A program made the translations under genes and the position numbers. Below, in pieces: positions 52,339 through 60,010 of a stretch of DNA of 64,000 nt. The stretch is taken from positions 62,001 to 126,000 of the forward strand of contig DRHT01000031.1 in NCBI GenBank assembly GCA_011053055.1, given 5' to 3'. Every line of letters begins with the position of its first letter. Positions within the stretch are counted from its first letter, which is position 1. The DNA is from Halopseudomonas sabulinigri. GTDB taxonomy: Bacteria > Pseudomonadota > Gammaproteobacteria > Pseudomonadales > Pseudomonadaceae. The notes beneath the pieces were generated by a model. It was not told the DNA's origin and searched no databases. It saw only the letters and a list, made by a program, of their open reading frames with translations.

Positions 52339-53394
52339 TTAATCAGCTGCAGGAGCGGCTTCTGGAAAAGAGCTTGTGGCAGCAACAATCCGATTGCGTC
52401 CGCCGCTTTTGGCATCATACATGCGCTTGTCGGCGACTTTCAGTAAGGCGCTCAGATCAGCCCCATCATCGTTCAAGGTCGCCACGCCACCACTAAAACT
52501 CATCTGCAACGCAGTGCCATCGGCCAGCTGCAATGGCGTGGTAGCCAATTGCTGACGCAGCTGATCTGCCAAGCTAGCGGCCTGATGGTGATCCGCGCCG
52601 AGCAGCAGAACGGCGAATTCTTCGCCACCCAGCCGGCAAGCCAAGTCAGAGCCACGCAGGCGACCAGATAGCAAATGAGCCGCATGCTGCAAGGCTTGAT
52701 CCCCTATATCGTGTCCGTATTGATCATTCACTCGCTTGAACATGTCCAGATCCACCACCACCAGGGACAGCGCCATTCCACTGCGCTCTGCCTGGCTGCG
52801 CAAGCGAAGGAACTCTTCACCCAGGCGCATGCGGTTGGCGATGCCAGTCAGGTTGTCAGTGCCGGCTAGCTCAATCAAGCGTGCCTCATTGCTCGTGCGG
52901 CTGCGCTCATAGATATGTGAAAACAGCATTACCGCAAAACTACTGAAGGCAAGGTTGGTGGCAATGAGTGCGTCCATCGAATTCTCGCCGGTCATGTAAC
53001 GCACATTGAAGGCGATGACCGCCGCGGTAACAAAGATCAACGACATCCATAGGCCGCCGCGCTGGCCCAGCAGCAGGTAGGAAATGATGGGGATGGTTTG
53101 AATCCATGCAAACACGGTGAAAGAGGTTTTTGGCAGCAATAAAGCAAATACCATCATGCAGAAAAAAAGGACTAGATAAGCGACCGTCCAGGCAACCAGA
53201 TGCCGGGTGGTCGGCACAACGCGCTGCAAGCTCAGCGCAAAAAATGCATACGCCACTTCCAGCCCCGCCAGCAAATACATCCCGCGATAGCTATTCAAGC
53301 CAGCGAAGATAAGACCAAAGACAAATGTGAGCCACAACAACGCCCGCAAAACGGAACGGCGATGGCTTTGATTTTGTTCGAGTTGCTTGGCCAT
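52339..53394 (-). CDS. Membrane diguanylate cyclase (TM sensor-GGDEF)
   Basis: 351 aa. About six TM helices in the first 180 residues without a large periplasmic loop, then GGDEF: LTGIANRMRLGEEFLRL, VDLDMFKRVNDQYGHDIG, and RLGGEEFAVLLLGADH with the RxxD inhibitory site RGSD. AAGGA lies eight bases before ATG. The tail after the GGDEF fold is short and alanine-rich. Confidence 0.87.
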   Translation of the reverse strand: MAKQLEQNQSHRRSVLRALLWLTFVFGLIFAGLNSYRGMYLLAGLEVAYAFFALSLQRVVPTTRHLVAWTVAYLVLFFCMMVFALLLPKTSFTVFAWIQTIPIISYLLLGQRGGLWMSLIFVTAAVIAFNVRYMTGENSMDALIATNLAFSSFAVMLFSHIYERSRTSNEARLIELAGTDNLTGIANRMRLGEEFLRLRSQAERSGMALSLVVVDLDMFKRVNDQYGHDIGDQALQHAAHLLSGRLRGSDLACRLGGEEFAVLLLGADHHQAASLADQLRQQLATTPLQLADGTALQMSFSGGVATLNDDGADLSALLKVADKRMYDAKSGGRNRIVAATSSFPEAAPAAD

Positions 53395-53645: not shown

Positions 53646-54650
53646 GTGACCGCGATTCCACTGCTGGTATGTGACGACTCCAATATGGCTCGCAAGCAGC
53701 TGATTCGAGCACTGCCGGCAAATTGGCCGTTTCGAATTACGCAAGCCACCAATGGCTTGGAGGGTTTGGAGGCGATTCGCGCCGGCGCAGGGCAAATAGT
53801 TTTGCTCGATTTGACGATGCCCGAGCTTGATGGTTTCGGCGTGCTGGCGGCGCTGCGCGAAGAAGCGCTCGAGTGTGAAGTTATAGTGGTTTCTGGCGAC
53901 GTCCAGGAAGAAGCCGTGCGCCGCGCCAAAGCGTTAGGCGCACGCGCGTTCATCAAGAAACCAGCTGACCCTATGCAGTTAGCTGAAGCGCTGAATTCCC
54001 TGGGTGTCGAGGTGCCGCTCACTACGCCTGCAACAGACGGCCGGGAAAGCGAATTTCCGCTGCCCAACGTTTCTTTCCGCGATGCCTTCCGTGAAGTATC
54101 CAATGTTGCCATGGGGCGTGCCGCCGAACTGCTAGGGCGGGTGCTCAATCTGTTCATCAAGCTGCCCATACCCAACGTCAATATTTTGGAAGTCGGCGAG
54201 CTGCACATGGCGCTGGCCGACGCTCAGCGCGGGCAGCGATTGTCTGCCATTTGCCAAGGCTTTATTGGCGGCGGCGTTGCCGGAGAAGCCTTGTTGATCT
54301 TCCATGACTCAGAGATTGGCGATGTAGCCCAACTGCTGAACGCGCGCGAAGATGAAAACGCACAGCTTGAAATGCTGCTGGATTTGGCCAGCATCATCAT
54401 CGGCGCTTGCCTCAACGGCCTGTCTGAGCAGCTGAACATCACCCTGTCACAGGGACACCCGATGGTGCTAGGCCAACATTGTCCTATTGAAGACCTAATT
54501 CGCATCAACCAACGCCGCTGGAAGCGCACCTTGGCTGTGGAAATCAGCTACGGTCTGGAAGACCTGGAGATTCATTTCGACCTGTTGCTGCTGTTTACCG
54601 AAGACTCGGTCCCTCGGCTACGGGAAACCCTCGACTTCATGATCAACTGA
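53646..54650 (+). CDS. Response regulator fused to a CheC-like phosphatase domain
   Basis: 334 aa from GTG 53646, preceded by AAGGAT; the exact start is open but the receiver begins immediately. Receiver (about 5-120): CDDSNMARKQL, phosphoacceptor VLLDLTMPELDG, IVVSGD and FIKKPAD. CheC/CheX-like domain (about 150-330): the catalytic pattern ExxNxxxG is present in REVSNVAMGRAAELLGRVLN, while the pseudo-symmetric second helix LLDLASIIIGACLNGLSEQL has Asp and Ser where E and N would be. So one potential phosphatase site, CheX-like. The next gene, 31 bases downstream, is a PAS-GGDEF cyclase. Confidence 0.85.
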   Translation: MTAIPLLVCDDSNMARKQLIRALPANWPFRITQATNGLEGLEAIRAGAGQIVLLDLTMPELDGFGVLAALREEALECEVIVVSGDVQEEAVRRAKALGARAFIKKPADPMQLAEALNSLGVEVPLTTPATDGRESEFPLPNVSFRDAFREVSNVAMGRAAELLGRVLNLFIKLPIPNVNILEVGELHMALADAQRGQRLSAICQGFIGGGVAGEALLIFHDSEIGDVAQLLNAREDENAQLEMLLDLASIIIGACLNGLSEQLNITLSQGHPMVLGQHCPIEDLIRINQRRWKRTLAVEISYGLEDLEIHFDLLLLFTEDSVPRLRETLDFMIN

Positions 54651-54681
54651 CCACGTGATCAACTGAATAAAGGCAAGGCGC

Positions 54682-55635
54682 ATGGCTGCTCAGTTTGACA
54701 TCAACGAACTCCACTGGCTGCTCGACATCGTCCAGAGCATCGATGTGGGCGTGGTAGTGATGGACCGTGAATACAAGATTGAGGTTTGGAACAGCTTTAT
54801 GGAGAACCACTCCGGCTTAGGCTCGGCAGAGGTCAACCAGCGCTCATTGTTCGAGCTGTTTCAGGAAATAGACCAAACCTGGTTTACCCAAAAGGTCGAA
54901 ACTTCGGTCATGTTAGGCACCCGCGCTTTTACCATCTGGGAGCAGCGGCCCAACCTGTTTCGCTTCAAAAGCTACCAGCCGATCACCGGGCTAGCCGATG
55001 AAATGTACCAGAATGTCACCATTTTGCCGCTGCGCAGCAGTACCGGCAAAACCGATCACGTGTGTTTAATTATTTATGATGTAACCGGAGTCGCTGTAAA
55101 CAAACGGCAACTCGAGTCTGCCAATACTAAGCTGAGAGAGTTAGCGCTGCGTGACGGCCTGACCGGGTTACTCAATCGGCGTTACTGGGAAAGCTGCCTG
55201 GAGCACGAGTTCGCACGTCACCAGCGCTATGACAACGAAGTCTGCCTGGTCATGTTCGATATCGACCACTTCAAGAAGGTCAACGATACCTTCGGCCATC
55301 AGGCCGGTGACGAGGTTATCCGCACGACTGCGCGCTTGACCGAACAGCTGGCCAGAGAAACCGATTTTTGCGGACGTTACGGTGGCGAAGAGTTTGTTGT
55401 GCTGCTGCCAGACACGCCTTTGGAAGGAGCTCAACAATTTGCCGAGCGCCTCAGGCAAAGCGTCGAGCGTCAGCAACTGGACCACCAGGGTACGCCCGTG
55501 ACCTTCACCATCAGCTTAGGCGTTGCGCGCCTGACGGATGGCATGGAAAGTTACAAAGAGTTGATTGAGCGCGCCGACAAAGCGCTTTACCAGTCCAAAG
55601 AAGCTGGCCGCAACCTCACCACCATTGCGGAATAA
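54682..55635 (+). CDS. PAS-GGDEF diguanylate cyclase, cytoplasmic
   Basis: 317 aa without TM helices. PAS-like sensor about 10-140 (IVQSIDVGVVVMDREYKIEVW), a helical linker, then GGDEF about 150-310: MFDIDHFKKVNDTFGHQAG, RYGGEEFVVLLPD with RETD as the inhibitory site. Co-oriented with and 31 bases from the receiver-CheC gene, so they probably act together in one c-di-GMP signal path. Confidence 0.88.
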   Translation: MAAQFDINELHWLLDIVQSIDVGVVVMDREYKIEVWNSFMENHSGLGSAEVNQRSLFELFQEIDQTWFTQKVETSVMLGTRAFTIWEQRPNLFRFKSYQPITGLADEMYQNVTILPLRSSTGKTDHVCLIIYDVTGVAVNKRQLESANTKLRELALRDGLTGLLNRRYWESCLEHEFARHQRYDNEVCLVMFDIDHFKKVNDTFGHQAGDEVIRTTARLTEQLARETDFCGRYGGEEFVVLLPDTPLEGAQQFAERLRQSVERQQLDHQGTPVTFTISLGVARLTDGMESYKELIERADKALYQSKEAGRNLTTIAE

Positions 55636-55657: not shown

Positions 55658-55673
55658 TGTGAAGCATTTCACA
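55658..55673. promoter_or_regulatory. Perfect CRP/Vfr-type binding site
   Basis: TGTGA-AGCATT-TCACA, both half-sites and the six-base spacing identical to the CRP/Vfr consensus. It overlaps the -35 hexamer of the promoter at 55668-55696, centred about 37 bases before the predicted transcript start, which suggests repression unless another start is used. Confidence 0.75.
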
Positions 55674-55696
55674 TCTCACAAATAGCCGGGTATGAT
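55668..55696 (+). promoter_or_regulatory. Sigma-70 promoter for the small ORF/dbpA region
   Basis: TTCACA-17 bases-TATGAT: five of six matches to each hexamer and ideal spacing. Predicted start near 55703, giving a leader of about 115 bases before the ATG at 55817. A second possible -10, TATTAT, lies at 55732-55737. Confidence 0.65.
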
Positions 55697-55816
55697 GCGC
55701 GGCAAGGGATCGAAAGCGTCAAGGAAGAGGCTATTATAGAATAAAACCTGCCTGATAGACGTTTTTCTGACAGCATCCAAGCCATAGCAAGTCAACCAAC
55801 ACACGGCAGTCTGACC

Positions 55817-55981
55817 ATGAAATCACCTACACGCGGGTGGCGCTGGGCCTATCGCAAGACCCGCAGCTACCACACTACAAAATTGCAGGCGCTATACCGC
55901 GCGACTCGTTACTGGGCAACCGGTGATACCGGCTCCTTTATCAGCCATGGCGGCTTTCGCAAGACACGCATTCGGCGCTGA
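55817..55981 (+). CDS. Small basic protein, 54 aa, uncharacterised (below ORF-track cutoff)
   Basis: ATG to TGA, 54 codons. Very rich in Arg and Lys and in aromatics: MKSPTRGWRWAYRKTRSYHT at the N-terminus, then QALYRATRYWATGDTGS and a basic end FRKTRIRR. Codon use looks like that of the neighbouring genes. It has a plausible promoter 120-150 bases upstream but only a weak ribosome site. The composition suggests nucleic-acid or ribosome binding; that is inference. It ends 67 bases before the predicted dbpA start, and overlaps the spurious 5' extension of that ORF in another frame. Confidence 0.55.
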   Translation: MKSPTRGWRWAYRKTRSYHTTKLQALYRATRYWATGDTGSFISHGGFRKTRIRR

Positions 55982-56048
55982 TAGCGCTGCTGGCCAGCAA
56001 GTCCAATCTGATACACTGCAAGGCCTTTCTTCGCTTCAGGCCAGCCCC

Positions 56049-57431
56049 GTGACCCAGACTACCTTCGACTCGCTAAAACTGCCCCAGGCTATGCTCGATA
56101 CCCTGCAGCAAATGGGCTATGCGAGCATGACGCCGATTCAAGCCGAAGCGCTGCCGCTGATACTTCAGGGCAATGATCTGCTGGCCCAGTCACGTACCGG
56201 CAGCGGCAAGACAGCCGCCTTCGGTATCGGCCTGCTGACCCCACTAAACCCGCAGTTCTTTGGCTGCCAGGCACTGGTGCTGAGCCCTACGCGCGAATTG
56301 GCGACGCAAACGGCTACAGCCTTGCGTAACCTGGCACGCGGGCTGCCCAATATCAAAATTATTACGCTATGCGGTGGTACTCCTTTTGGACCGCAAGCCG
56401 CCTCGCTGGAACAAGGTGCACACGTCATCGTCGGCACGCCCGGTCGAATCCAAGATCACTTGGCTCGCGGTACTCTGACCCTCGACAACCTTAACTGCCT
56501 GGTGCTAGACGAAGCCGACCGGATGCTCGACATGGGTTTTGTCGACCCTATCCGCGAGATCATCGGTCACACGCCAAAGCGCCGCCAGACTCTGTTGTTT
56601 TCAGCAACCTACCCGTCAGGTTTGAAATCATTGGCCAGCGAATTCATGCGCGAGCCGAAACAGATCACCATAAGCGATGCCAGCCCAAGCAATCCCATCA
56701 CTCAGCGCTTCTACGAAATTGAAGAGAAGCAACGCTTTGATGCCGTGTTACGTTTGCTCGCCGCCGATCGACCACAACCCTGTATCGCGTTTTGTCACAC
56801 TCGCCAGCAGTGTCAGGAACTGGCCGACTTTTTGAACGCCAATAGCATCAGTGCGCAAGCTATACACGGTGACATGGAGCAACGCGACCGCGATCAAGTA
56901 CTGGCATTGTTTGCCAATCAGAGCTGCAGCGTGCTGACCGCGACCGATGTTGCCGCCCGAGGCATCGATATCGAAGGCGTTGCAGCGGTAATCAACGTAG
57001 AACTCTCGGCTGATCCTTCCGCGCATACCCACCGCATTGGGCGTAGCGGCCGTGCCGGCCAGTCCGGCTTGGCGCTGAGCCTGGTGGCCCCTCGCGAACT
57101 CAAACGTTCGCGCGCAATTGAAGAAACCAGTGGTGAACCGCTGAACTGGCAGGAGCTCGACAGCTTGCCTGCCAGACTCGACCAGCCAATGATCGCGCCC
57201 ATGCGCACGCTGGCGGTAGCCGGTGGCCGCAAGGACAAGTTACGCCCCGGCGACCTGCTTGGCGCCCTCACTGGCGACGCGGGCTTATCGGCAGATGCAA
57301 TTGGCAAGATCAGCATCAGTGACTATCAAGCCTTGGTCGCTATTCGCCGCGATCAGGCCAAGCAGGCACTCGCGCGACTGAGCGAAGGTAAGATCAAGGG
57401 CCGCAACTTCAGGGTGCGCCTGCTGTCATAG
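56049..57431 (+). CDS. dbpA: DEAD-box RNA helicase DbpA
   Basis: Ribosome-assembly helicase activated by 23S rRNA hairpin 92. 460 aa from GTG 56049 (VTQTTFDSLKLPQAML, read as Met), which fits the E. coli start; the listed start at 55923 crosses the small ORF. Motifs: Q motif MTPIQAEALPLI, Walker A SRTGSGKTAAFG, VLDEADRMLDMGF, LLFSATYPS, TDVAARGIDIEGV, HRIGRSGRAGQ. The C-terminal RRM-like DbpA RNA-binding domain is present (LRPGDLLGALTGDAGLSADA ... GKIKGRNFRVRLLS), which separates it from SrmB and RhlB. Confidence 0.9.
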   Translation: MTQTTFDSLKLPQAMLDTLQQMGYASMTPIQAEALPLILQGNDLLAQSRTGSGKTAAFGIGLLTPLNPQFFGCQALVLSPTRELATQTATALRNLARGLPNIKIITLCGGTPFGPQAASLEQGAHVIVGTPGRIQDHLARGTLTLDNLNCLVLDEADRMLDMGFVDPIREIIGHTPKRRQTLLFSATYPSGLKSLASEFMREPKQITISDASPSNPITQRFYEIEEKQRFDAVLRLLAADRPQPCIAFCHTRQQCQELADFLNANSISAQAIHGDMEQRDRDQVLALFANQSCSVLTATDVAARGIDIEGVAAVINVELSADPSAHTHRIGRSGRAGQSGLALSLVAPRELKRSRAIEETSGEPLNWQELDSLPARLDQPMIAPMRTLAVAGGRKDKLRPGDLLGALTGDAGLSADAIGKISISDYQALVAIRRDQAKQALARLSEGKIKGRNFRVRLLS

Positions 57432-59482: not shown

Positions 59483-60010
59483 TTATTCGCTGATCAGGCC
59501 GCATGCAACACGCGCACCGCCACCACCCAATTTTTCCGGTTGATCGGAATTGTTGTCACCGCCCGCATGCACCATCAACGCACGCCCTTCAATTTCTGCC
59601 AGCGTTTTGATTCTTGGCGCCAGTACCGGGTAGTCGGCAACACCCTGAGCATTAACATACAGCCCAGGCAGATCACCTAAATGACCCTCTCCGTATGGCC
59701 CAAGGTGCTCACCCGTGCTGGCGGGATCGTAGTGACTGCCTGCCGCAGCCGCCGGAGTAGGCTTGCCATCCTTATCGGCGGTGGCACAACTGGGGTTTTC
59801 GTGTACGTGGAAGCCATGTAAACCGGCAGGCAGCGATTTCAGGTTTGGCGTAAACAACAGCCCATCGTCGGTTTCGCTGATCACAACAGTACCAATTGAC
59901 TCCTGCTTGCCGTCCAGCCCCACCTTGTTAATGGTCACTTCTTGGGAGGCCGCTTGGGCCATTCCCGCCGTCAATGCCAGTGCCAATGCCAATCCGTTAC
60001 GTGCTTTCAT
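59483..60010 (-). CDS. sodC: Periplasmic Cu/Zn superoxide dismutase
   Basis: 175 aa with signal peptide (LALALALTAGMAQA). Copper and zinc ligands: GFHVHENPSC (His), AAGSHYDPASTGEHLGPYGEGHLGDLP (His, His, Asp) and LMVHAGGDNNSD with the last His. A disulfide pair is expected between the first Cys and the Cys in RVACGLI. Removes superoxide in the periplasm. Downstream of and same strand as the rubredoxin-alkB operon but separated by a hairpin. Confidence 0.93.
   Translation of the reverse strand: MKARNGLALALALTAGMAQAASQEVTINKVGLDGKQESIGTVVISETDDGLLFTPNLKSLPAGLHGFHVHENPSCATADKDGKPTPAAAAGSHYDPASTGEHLGPYGEGHLGDLPGLYVNAQGVADYPVLAPRIKTLAEIEGRALMVHAGGDNNSDQPEKLGGGGARVACGLISE

Follow-up and report, generated by a model that had tools for sequence, protein, structure and literature searches.

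The region between a GGDEF operon and dbpA in Halopseudomonas sabulinigri contains an unlisted short open reading frame (ORF), and raises the question of whether this ORF is a gene and, if so, whether it belongs with the helicase gene beside it or stands on its own. The window referred to here is the whole 64,000-nucleotide stretch of DNA from this species that was analysed; its relevant features are listed in Table 1. The original prediction described a 54-codon basic ORF encoding a protein of no known family, preceded by a sigma-70 promoter with an overlapping CRP/Vfr box and possibly linked, through dbpA, to ribosome assembly. The comparisons described below support the gene, its promoter and its novelty and separate it from dbpA, and a stand-alone mobile unit encoding either a nucleic-acid-binding regulator or a phage-exclusion protein appears the most likely interpretation.

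Table 1. Features of the small-gene unit and its flanking genes, in window coordinates.
Feature	Position	Strand	Sequence or type	Remarks
PAS-GGDEF diguanylate cyclase	54682..55635	+	final gene of response regulator/GGDEF operon	neighbour
Candidate CRP/Vfr box	55658..55673	+	TGTGAAGCATTTCACA	centre about 37 bases upstream of presumed transcription start
Sigma-70-type promoter of small gene	55668..55696	+	TTCACA-17-TATGAT	10/12; -35/-10 recognisable in close orthologues
Leader element	55717..55772	+	GTCAA...TTTTTCTGAC	can pair into terminator-like hairpin
Small gene	55817..55981	+	54 codons, MKSPTRGWRWAYRKTRSYHTTKLQALYRATRYWATGDTGSFISHGGFRKTRIRR	homologues, purifying selection, AlphaFold2 fold HHEE (predicted)
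Probable extended -10 of dbpA	56009..56017	+	TGATACACT	conserved with or without small gene
dbpA	56049..57431	+	DEAD-box RNA helicase, GTG start	neighbour, outside unit

Searches by tblastn with the 54 residues recovered 37 further homologous copies (57–87% identity, E < 1e-13) from 26 of the 36 other Halopseudomonas genomes, and homologues therefore occur in 27/37 genomes with up to three copies in each; the same search gave no clear homologue in 21 genomes from other families of the same order. In the comparison of homologues the boundary of conservation coincides with the start codons. Pairwise dN/dS among copies at the dbpA locus lies between 0.03 and 0.19 for almost every pair whose dS is usable (the exceptions being one pair at 0.27, one with zero amino-acid change and two with saturated dS), the pooled values for six independent pairs are pN 0.032 vs pS 0.438, and most Stenotrophomonas and phage pairs show the same direction as those of Halopseudomonas. 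The marks of protein-coding sequence, namely a conserved start, a conserved frame and purifying selection, were all found, and a spurious ORF is ruled out by the homologues and the dN/dS values. The ORF upstream of dbpA is thus a real and strongly conserved gene, a conclusion that these alignments support well; the tblastn and dN/dS comparison proposed with the original prediction returned both a conserved ORF and amino-acid-level constraint (dN/dS well below 1), far beyond chance.

The association with dbpA, and hence with ribosome assembly, did not survive comparison. A factor for translation or ribosome assembly that works with DbpA would agree with the basic character of the protein, with the presence of dbpA directly downstream of 19 copies in 19 genomes of the genus and with the location of further copies close to thrS and to an EF-G-like gene. 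However, dbpA was found in 17 of 17 genomes tested, including all 10 Halopseudomonas genomes that lack the small gene, near relatives of the window genome have an empty site at this locus, and G012, with a DbpA 92% identical to that of the window, has a gap of about 130 bases between the GGDEF gene and dbpA and no trace of the unit in it. Conversely, the small gene persists in L013, L021, L015 and L025, where dbpA has gone from the position. The motif CTGnTACACTG, the probable extended -10 of dbpA, precedes this gene in every dbpA arrangement examined, and most other family copies adjoin unrelated genes, those found beside them including genes for ThrS, an EF-G-like GTPase, RadC-domain and TPS-domain proteins, a LysR regulator with type II secretion genes, and a sensor kinase or protein kinase; phages carry the small gene as well. 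The probable promoter of dbpA, the empty sites and the ubiquity of dbpA indicate that the small gene is a separate insertion lying between two transcription units, and membership of a dbpA operon or a functional link with it was rejected (no co-inheritance, no shared promoter). Independence from dbpA is well supported by gene order, the adjacency is incidental, and a role as DbpA partner is highly improbable. Scarcely credible is a role in cis on dbpA, whether as leader peptide or as attenuator: the ORF does lie within the dbpA upstream region and some leaders hold a terminator-like hairpin, but this protein is also conserved in phages and in front of many other genes, and the probable promoter of dbpA lies downstream of the ORF.

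Other genes of the surroundings include, at 53646-55635 of the window, a response regulator (with a weak CheX-like match) followed by the PAS-GGDEF cyclase, an operon that most of the genus conserves upstream of the unit; another GGDEF gene on the opposite strand (52339-53394); and an ORF on the minus strand (59483-60010) that resembles by eye a periplasmic Cu/Zn superoxide dismutase.

The homologues form a family of 50–64-residue, highly basic and aromatic-rich proteins with the signature WxWAYxKxRS-xxxx-AxYRATR-xxxx-GDTGxFxSHGGxRKSRI. Members also occur in other Pseudomonadaceae (up to four diverged copies), in 14 of 61 Stenotrophomonas genomes, in two Pseudomonas plasmids whose annotation is blank at both spots, and in 21 viral contigs of IMG/VR (18 plus 3 from a further search); the family is absent from 273 other Gammaproteobacteria genomes (0/273). 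A Stenotrophomonas-group genome contains a tandem pair (G553:C5:17967-18427). The gene order around the copy in L060, titled Halomonas sp. isolate SAT58, matches that of Pseudomonas abyssi L057, and its title or binning may therefore be wrong. The family was not found among INPHARED phages, against which four proteins gave zero matches, so the phage evidence rests on the IMG/VR contigs, from which L171, L175 and L180 were excluded because these contigs group with copies from chromosomes (of Stenotrophomonas or of a different genus of the Pseudomonadaceae) and may represent host flank. Phage and plasmid copies cluster in the tree (support 83/84) separately from Halopseudomonas chromosomal copies, and copies at the dbpA locus largely follow the vertical lineage with some duplications, many forks being weak because the alignment has only 54 columns.

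The absence of a described family, as originally claimed, was upheld: Pfam, NCBIfam, PHROGs and PADLOC yielded no significant profile match to any member (the best were scattered single-member scores, E 0.014) and no convincing relative, and a sequence search of the PDB found none either. The literature search found no paper on Halopseudomonas small proteins or containing the family motif; the sequences of a P. stutzeri survey, which are placed in its supplements, lie outside this comparison (PMC10433244). Judged by these searches, the family is undescribed, spans bacterial families and phages and is missing from the databases consulted.

In the phage contigs that were annotated, the copies are inverted between the last tail gene and the endolysin gene, and this arrangement involves two endolysin families and several tail types. 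The gene order in L182 is tape measure, tail protein, gpD-type tail protein, inverted small gene, endolysin and Rz-like spanin, and in L165 tail J, structural protein, tail fibre, inverted small gene, endolysin and O-acetyltransferase. In L172 and L176 the endolysin is on one flank, and the opposite flank is occupied by a GDSL-domain protein, which in L176 is tail-fibre-like. L164 and L179 have a gpD-type gene on one flank, and L174 and L170 an O-antigen-acetylase-type gene nearby. Promoter-like sites were found 45–62 bases upstream in several copies; most phage copies have no obvious terminator, one being present in L165 only. A single unit inserted between adjacent phage genes, as in morons, is thus seen in inverted orientation in several phage types, and mobility among chromosomes, phages and plasmids is well supported by these locations. 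A conserved family with lone copies at many places and carriage by phages and plasmids makes a mobile phage- or host-control gene likelier than a helicase partner.

The same context underlies the strongest rival to a regulator, a protein of phage exclusion or superinfection immunity: morons at the junction of tail and lysis genes often shield the lysogen from other phages, and the copies on chromosomes would then be domesticated defences of one gene each, directed against a component of incoming phage. The position beside tail and endolysin genes in several phage types, in two of them near O-antigen acetylases (conversion genes), the patchy presence with several diverged copies per genome and the precedent of moron-borne immunity proteins (PMC11364771) agree with this reading, against which stand the lack of a PADLOC match, the lack of recognised defence genes among the neighbours of family copies, and the vertical inheritance and strong constraint of the dbpA-locus copy, unlike most exclusion genes, which evolve fast. 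Phage exclusion is considered possible though rather unlikely. That the protein is a growth inhibitor, the toxin half of a small toxin-antitoxin pair in which a partner or an antisense RNA silences it, is quite improbable, since its small size, basic character and patchy distribution on plasmids and phages are offset by the lack of a conserved partner gene adjoining the copies, of a recognisable hydrophobic helix and of a family match, and by strong purifying selection.

A trans-acting, nucleic-acid-binding small regulator is favoured over exclusion. All 87 family members examined are basic (pI at least 9.4, net charge +3 to +13), the window protein having a net charge of +13 and a pI of 11.8, and it is from this shared basicity that we infer nucleic-acid binding. 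Basic charge by itself is a weak indicator of such binding, and basic surfaces rich in W and Y can bind membranes or acidic proteins as well. AlphaFold2 models the window protein with helices at residues 8-17 and 22-35 and strands at 37-43 and 48-53 (mean pLDDT 82.7, pTM 0.62), and a phage member, modelled from a second alignment, with the same order of elements (mean pLDDT 80.1); two plasmid rows were left out of the structure-prediction alignment. The protein is therefore predicted to adopt a compact helix-helix-beta-hairpin mini-fold. Searches with this predicted fold gave no match in PDB or BFVD at E <= 0.001, all being at E > 1, and neither fold nor profile matches pointed to a nucleic-acid-binding class.

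With respect to transcription, TGTGAAGCATTTCACA is a perfect TGTGA-N6-TCACA and overlaps the -35 of TTCACA-17-TATGAT, the better of the two promoters in its kilobase (0.3 expected from shuffles); both box and promoter are exactly as first described. By chance an exact box would turn up about 0.06 times in 64 kb (64000/4^10), and one box with at most one mismatch was found there vs 1.75 expected. The whole genome (3.82 Mb) contains four perfect boxes vs 3.6 estimated by simple arithmetic, and one occurrence of the reversed control pattern; the number is thus about that of chance and not unusual by composition alone. The box is nevertheless plausible, because all four perfect boxes lie outside called ORFs and each upstream of a gene, the genome encodes a CRP/Vfr orthologue (361 bits vs a family cut-off of 266), and the window box closely fits the published Vfr consensus ANWWTGNGAWNYAGWTCACAT (TGNGA...TCACAT; PMC8787478). 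The other three boxes (L001, L003 and L004) precede genes named by eye as flgM-like, fliE-like and lipoprotein-like, the first two hinting at CRP/Vfr control of flagellar genes.

Conservation of the box is uneven, and on this point the original prediction stands in part. In eight close orthologues a -35/-10 pair is recognisable in most, together with the right half of the box, TTTCACA, which doubles as the -35 and is the only well conserved half; the left half reads TGTGA, TGCGG, TGAGA, TGGGA or TGCAA, is lost in three and persists as TGnGA in two. Across 105 upstream regions, 7 contain a box with at most one mismatch vs 0.55 from shuffles (the maximum of 200 runs being 4), an excess that is no more than suggestive because the seven fall into about three lineages. 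Three Stenotrophomonas copies have CGTGAT-N4-RTCACA 19–30 bases before the start, and one near-identical Stenotrophomonas pair keeps the palindrome arms with a changed spacer. A CRP/Clp-like palindrome occurs within about 30 bases of the start in L080, L157 and L087 (a near form in the first L175 copy), and in three of these four it just follows a TATCGT-like -10, as a possible operator. Repression of the small gene by CRP/Vfr, as suggested from the geometry of box and -35, is possible.

Between promoter and gene, the hairpin ends GTCAA/TTGAC of the leader element are kept in 7 of 8 close orthologues; the element is regarded as no more than suggestive because the folding energy of the whole window leader is ordinary compared with shuffles (z -0.23), and Rfam detected no element in the leader. 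The leader of L007 contains a clear intrinsic terminator (GCCGCC...GGCGGC-TTTTT) between promoter and start codon, which may represent an attenuator or, alternatively, the end of the GGDEF operon.

Taken together, a compact stand-alone unit comprising its own promoter, a short leader and one ORF would move between genomes. Temperate phages would carry the small gene as a moron, inverted at the tail/lysis junction, and plasmids would carry the unit as well; owing to the inversion, late transcription would not express the gene, and its own promoter could do so in the lysogen. In Halopseudomonas one copy would have settled on the chromosome between the GGDEF operon and dbpA and have passed to vertical inheritance. 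The protein would be a small trans-acting regulator that controls host or phage expression by binding nucleic acid, with the conserved basic residues K14, R16, R28, R31, R48 and R51 as proposed contacts, and in this species cAMP-CRP/Vfr bound at the -35 would modulate, probably lower, its transcription. Binding, CRP control and expression in the lysogen are the steps that we infer, and the proposal as a whole, an undescribed mobile-unit family encoding such a regulator, is held with about even confidence. A wider view is advanced more tentatively: a tiny nucleic-acid-binding or phage-exclusion family, settled at the same tail-lysis junction in several temperate phage types, repeatedly established on chromosomes of Pseudomonadaceae and Stenotrophomonas and under CRP-family control in some lineages, may set cell state for both phage and host.

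For host control expressed in lysogens, or for phage exclusion, the gene offers a small candidate that lends itself to testing, with several diverged natural copies and empty-site relatives as ready controls. It also illustrates that a below-cutoff ORF by a core gene can prove to be mobile instead of that gene's partner, and that a signature kept across bacterial families and phages can be absent both from the standard libraries and from such plasmid gene tables as were checked.

Hha/YmoA and CsrA/RsmA are small dispersed regulators that occur in several copies per genome and on chromosomes, plasmids and phages. The small-gene family shares with them its size, multicopy state and carriage by all three, and differs in having no family-model match and a predicted order of two helices followed by a beta-hairpin. 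Compared with the Vfr/CRP promoters of Pseudomonas (PMC8787478), the window promoter has a fitting box, which however overlaps the -35 and is not intact in orthologues. Tai and other moron-borne immunity proteins (PMC11364771), likened here by genomic context, are likewise moron-borne; Tai genes are found for the most part upstream of the packaging module, whereas the small-gene family occupies the tail-lysis junction. Phage morons (units of more DNA) are inserted between adjacent phage genes (PMC4378225, PMC2629481), and the small gene resembles them as a single accessory coding region placed between neighbouring genes in related phages, running against the late genes and with a probable promoter of its own in some copies; unlike morons, it mostly shows no terminator, belongs to an undescribed family and is also a chromosomal gene conserved across a bacterial genus.
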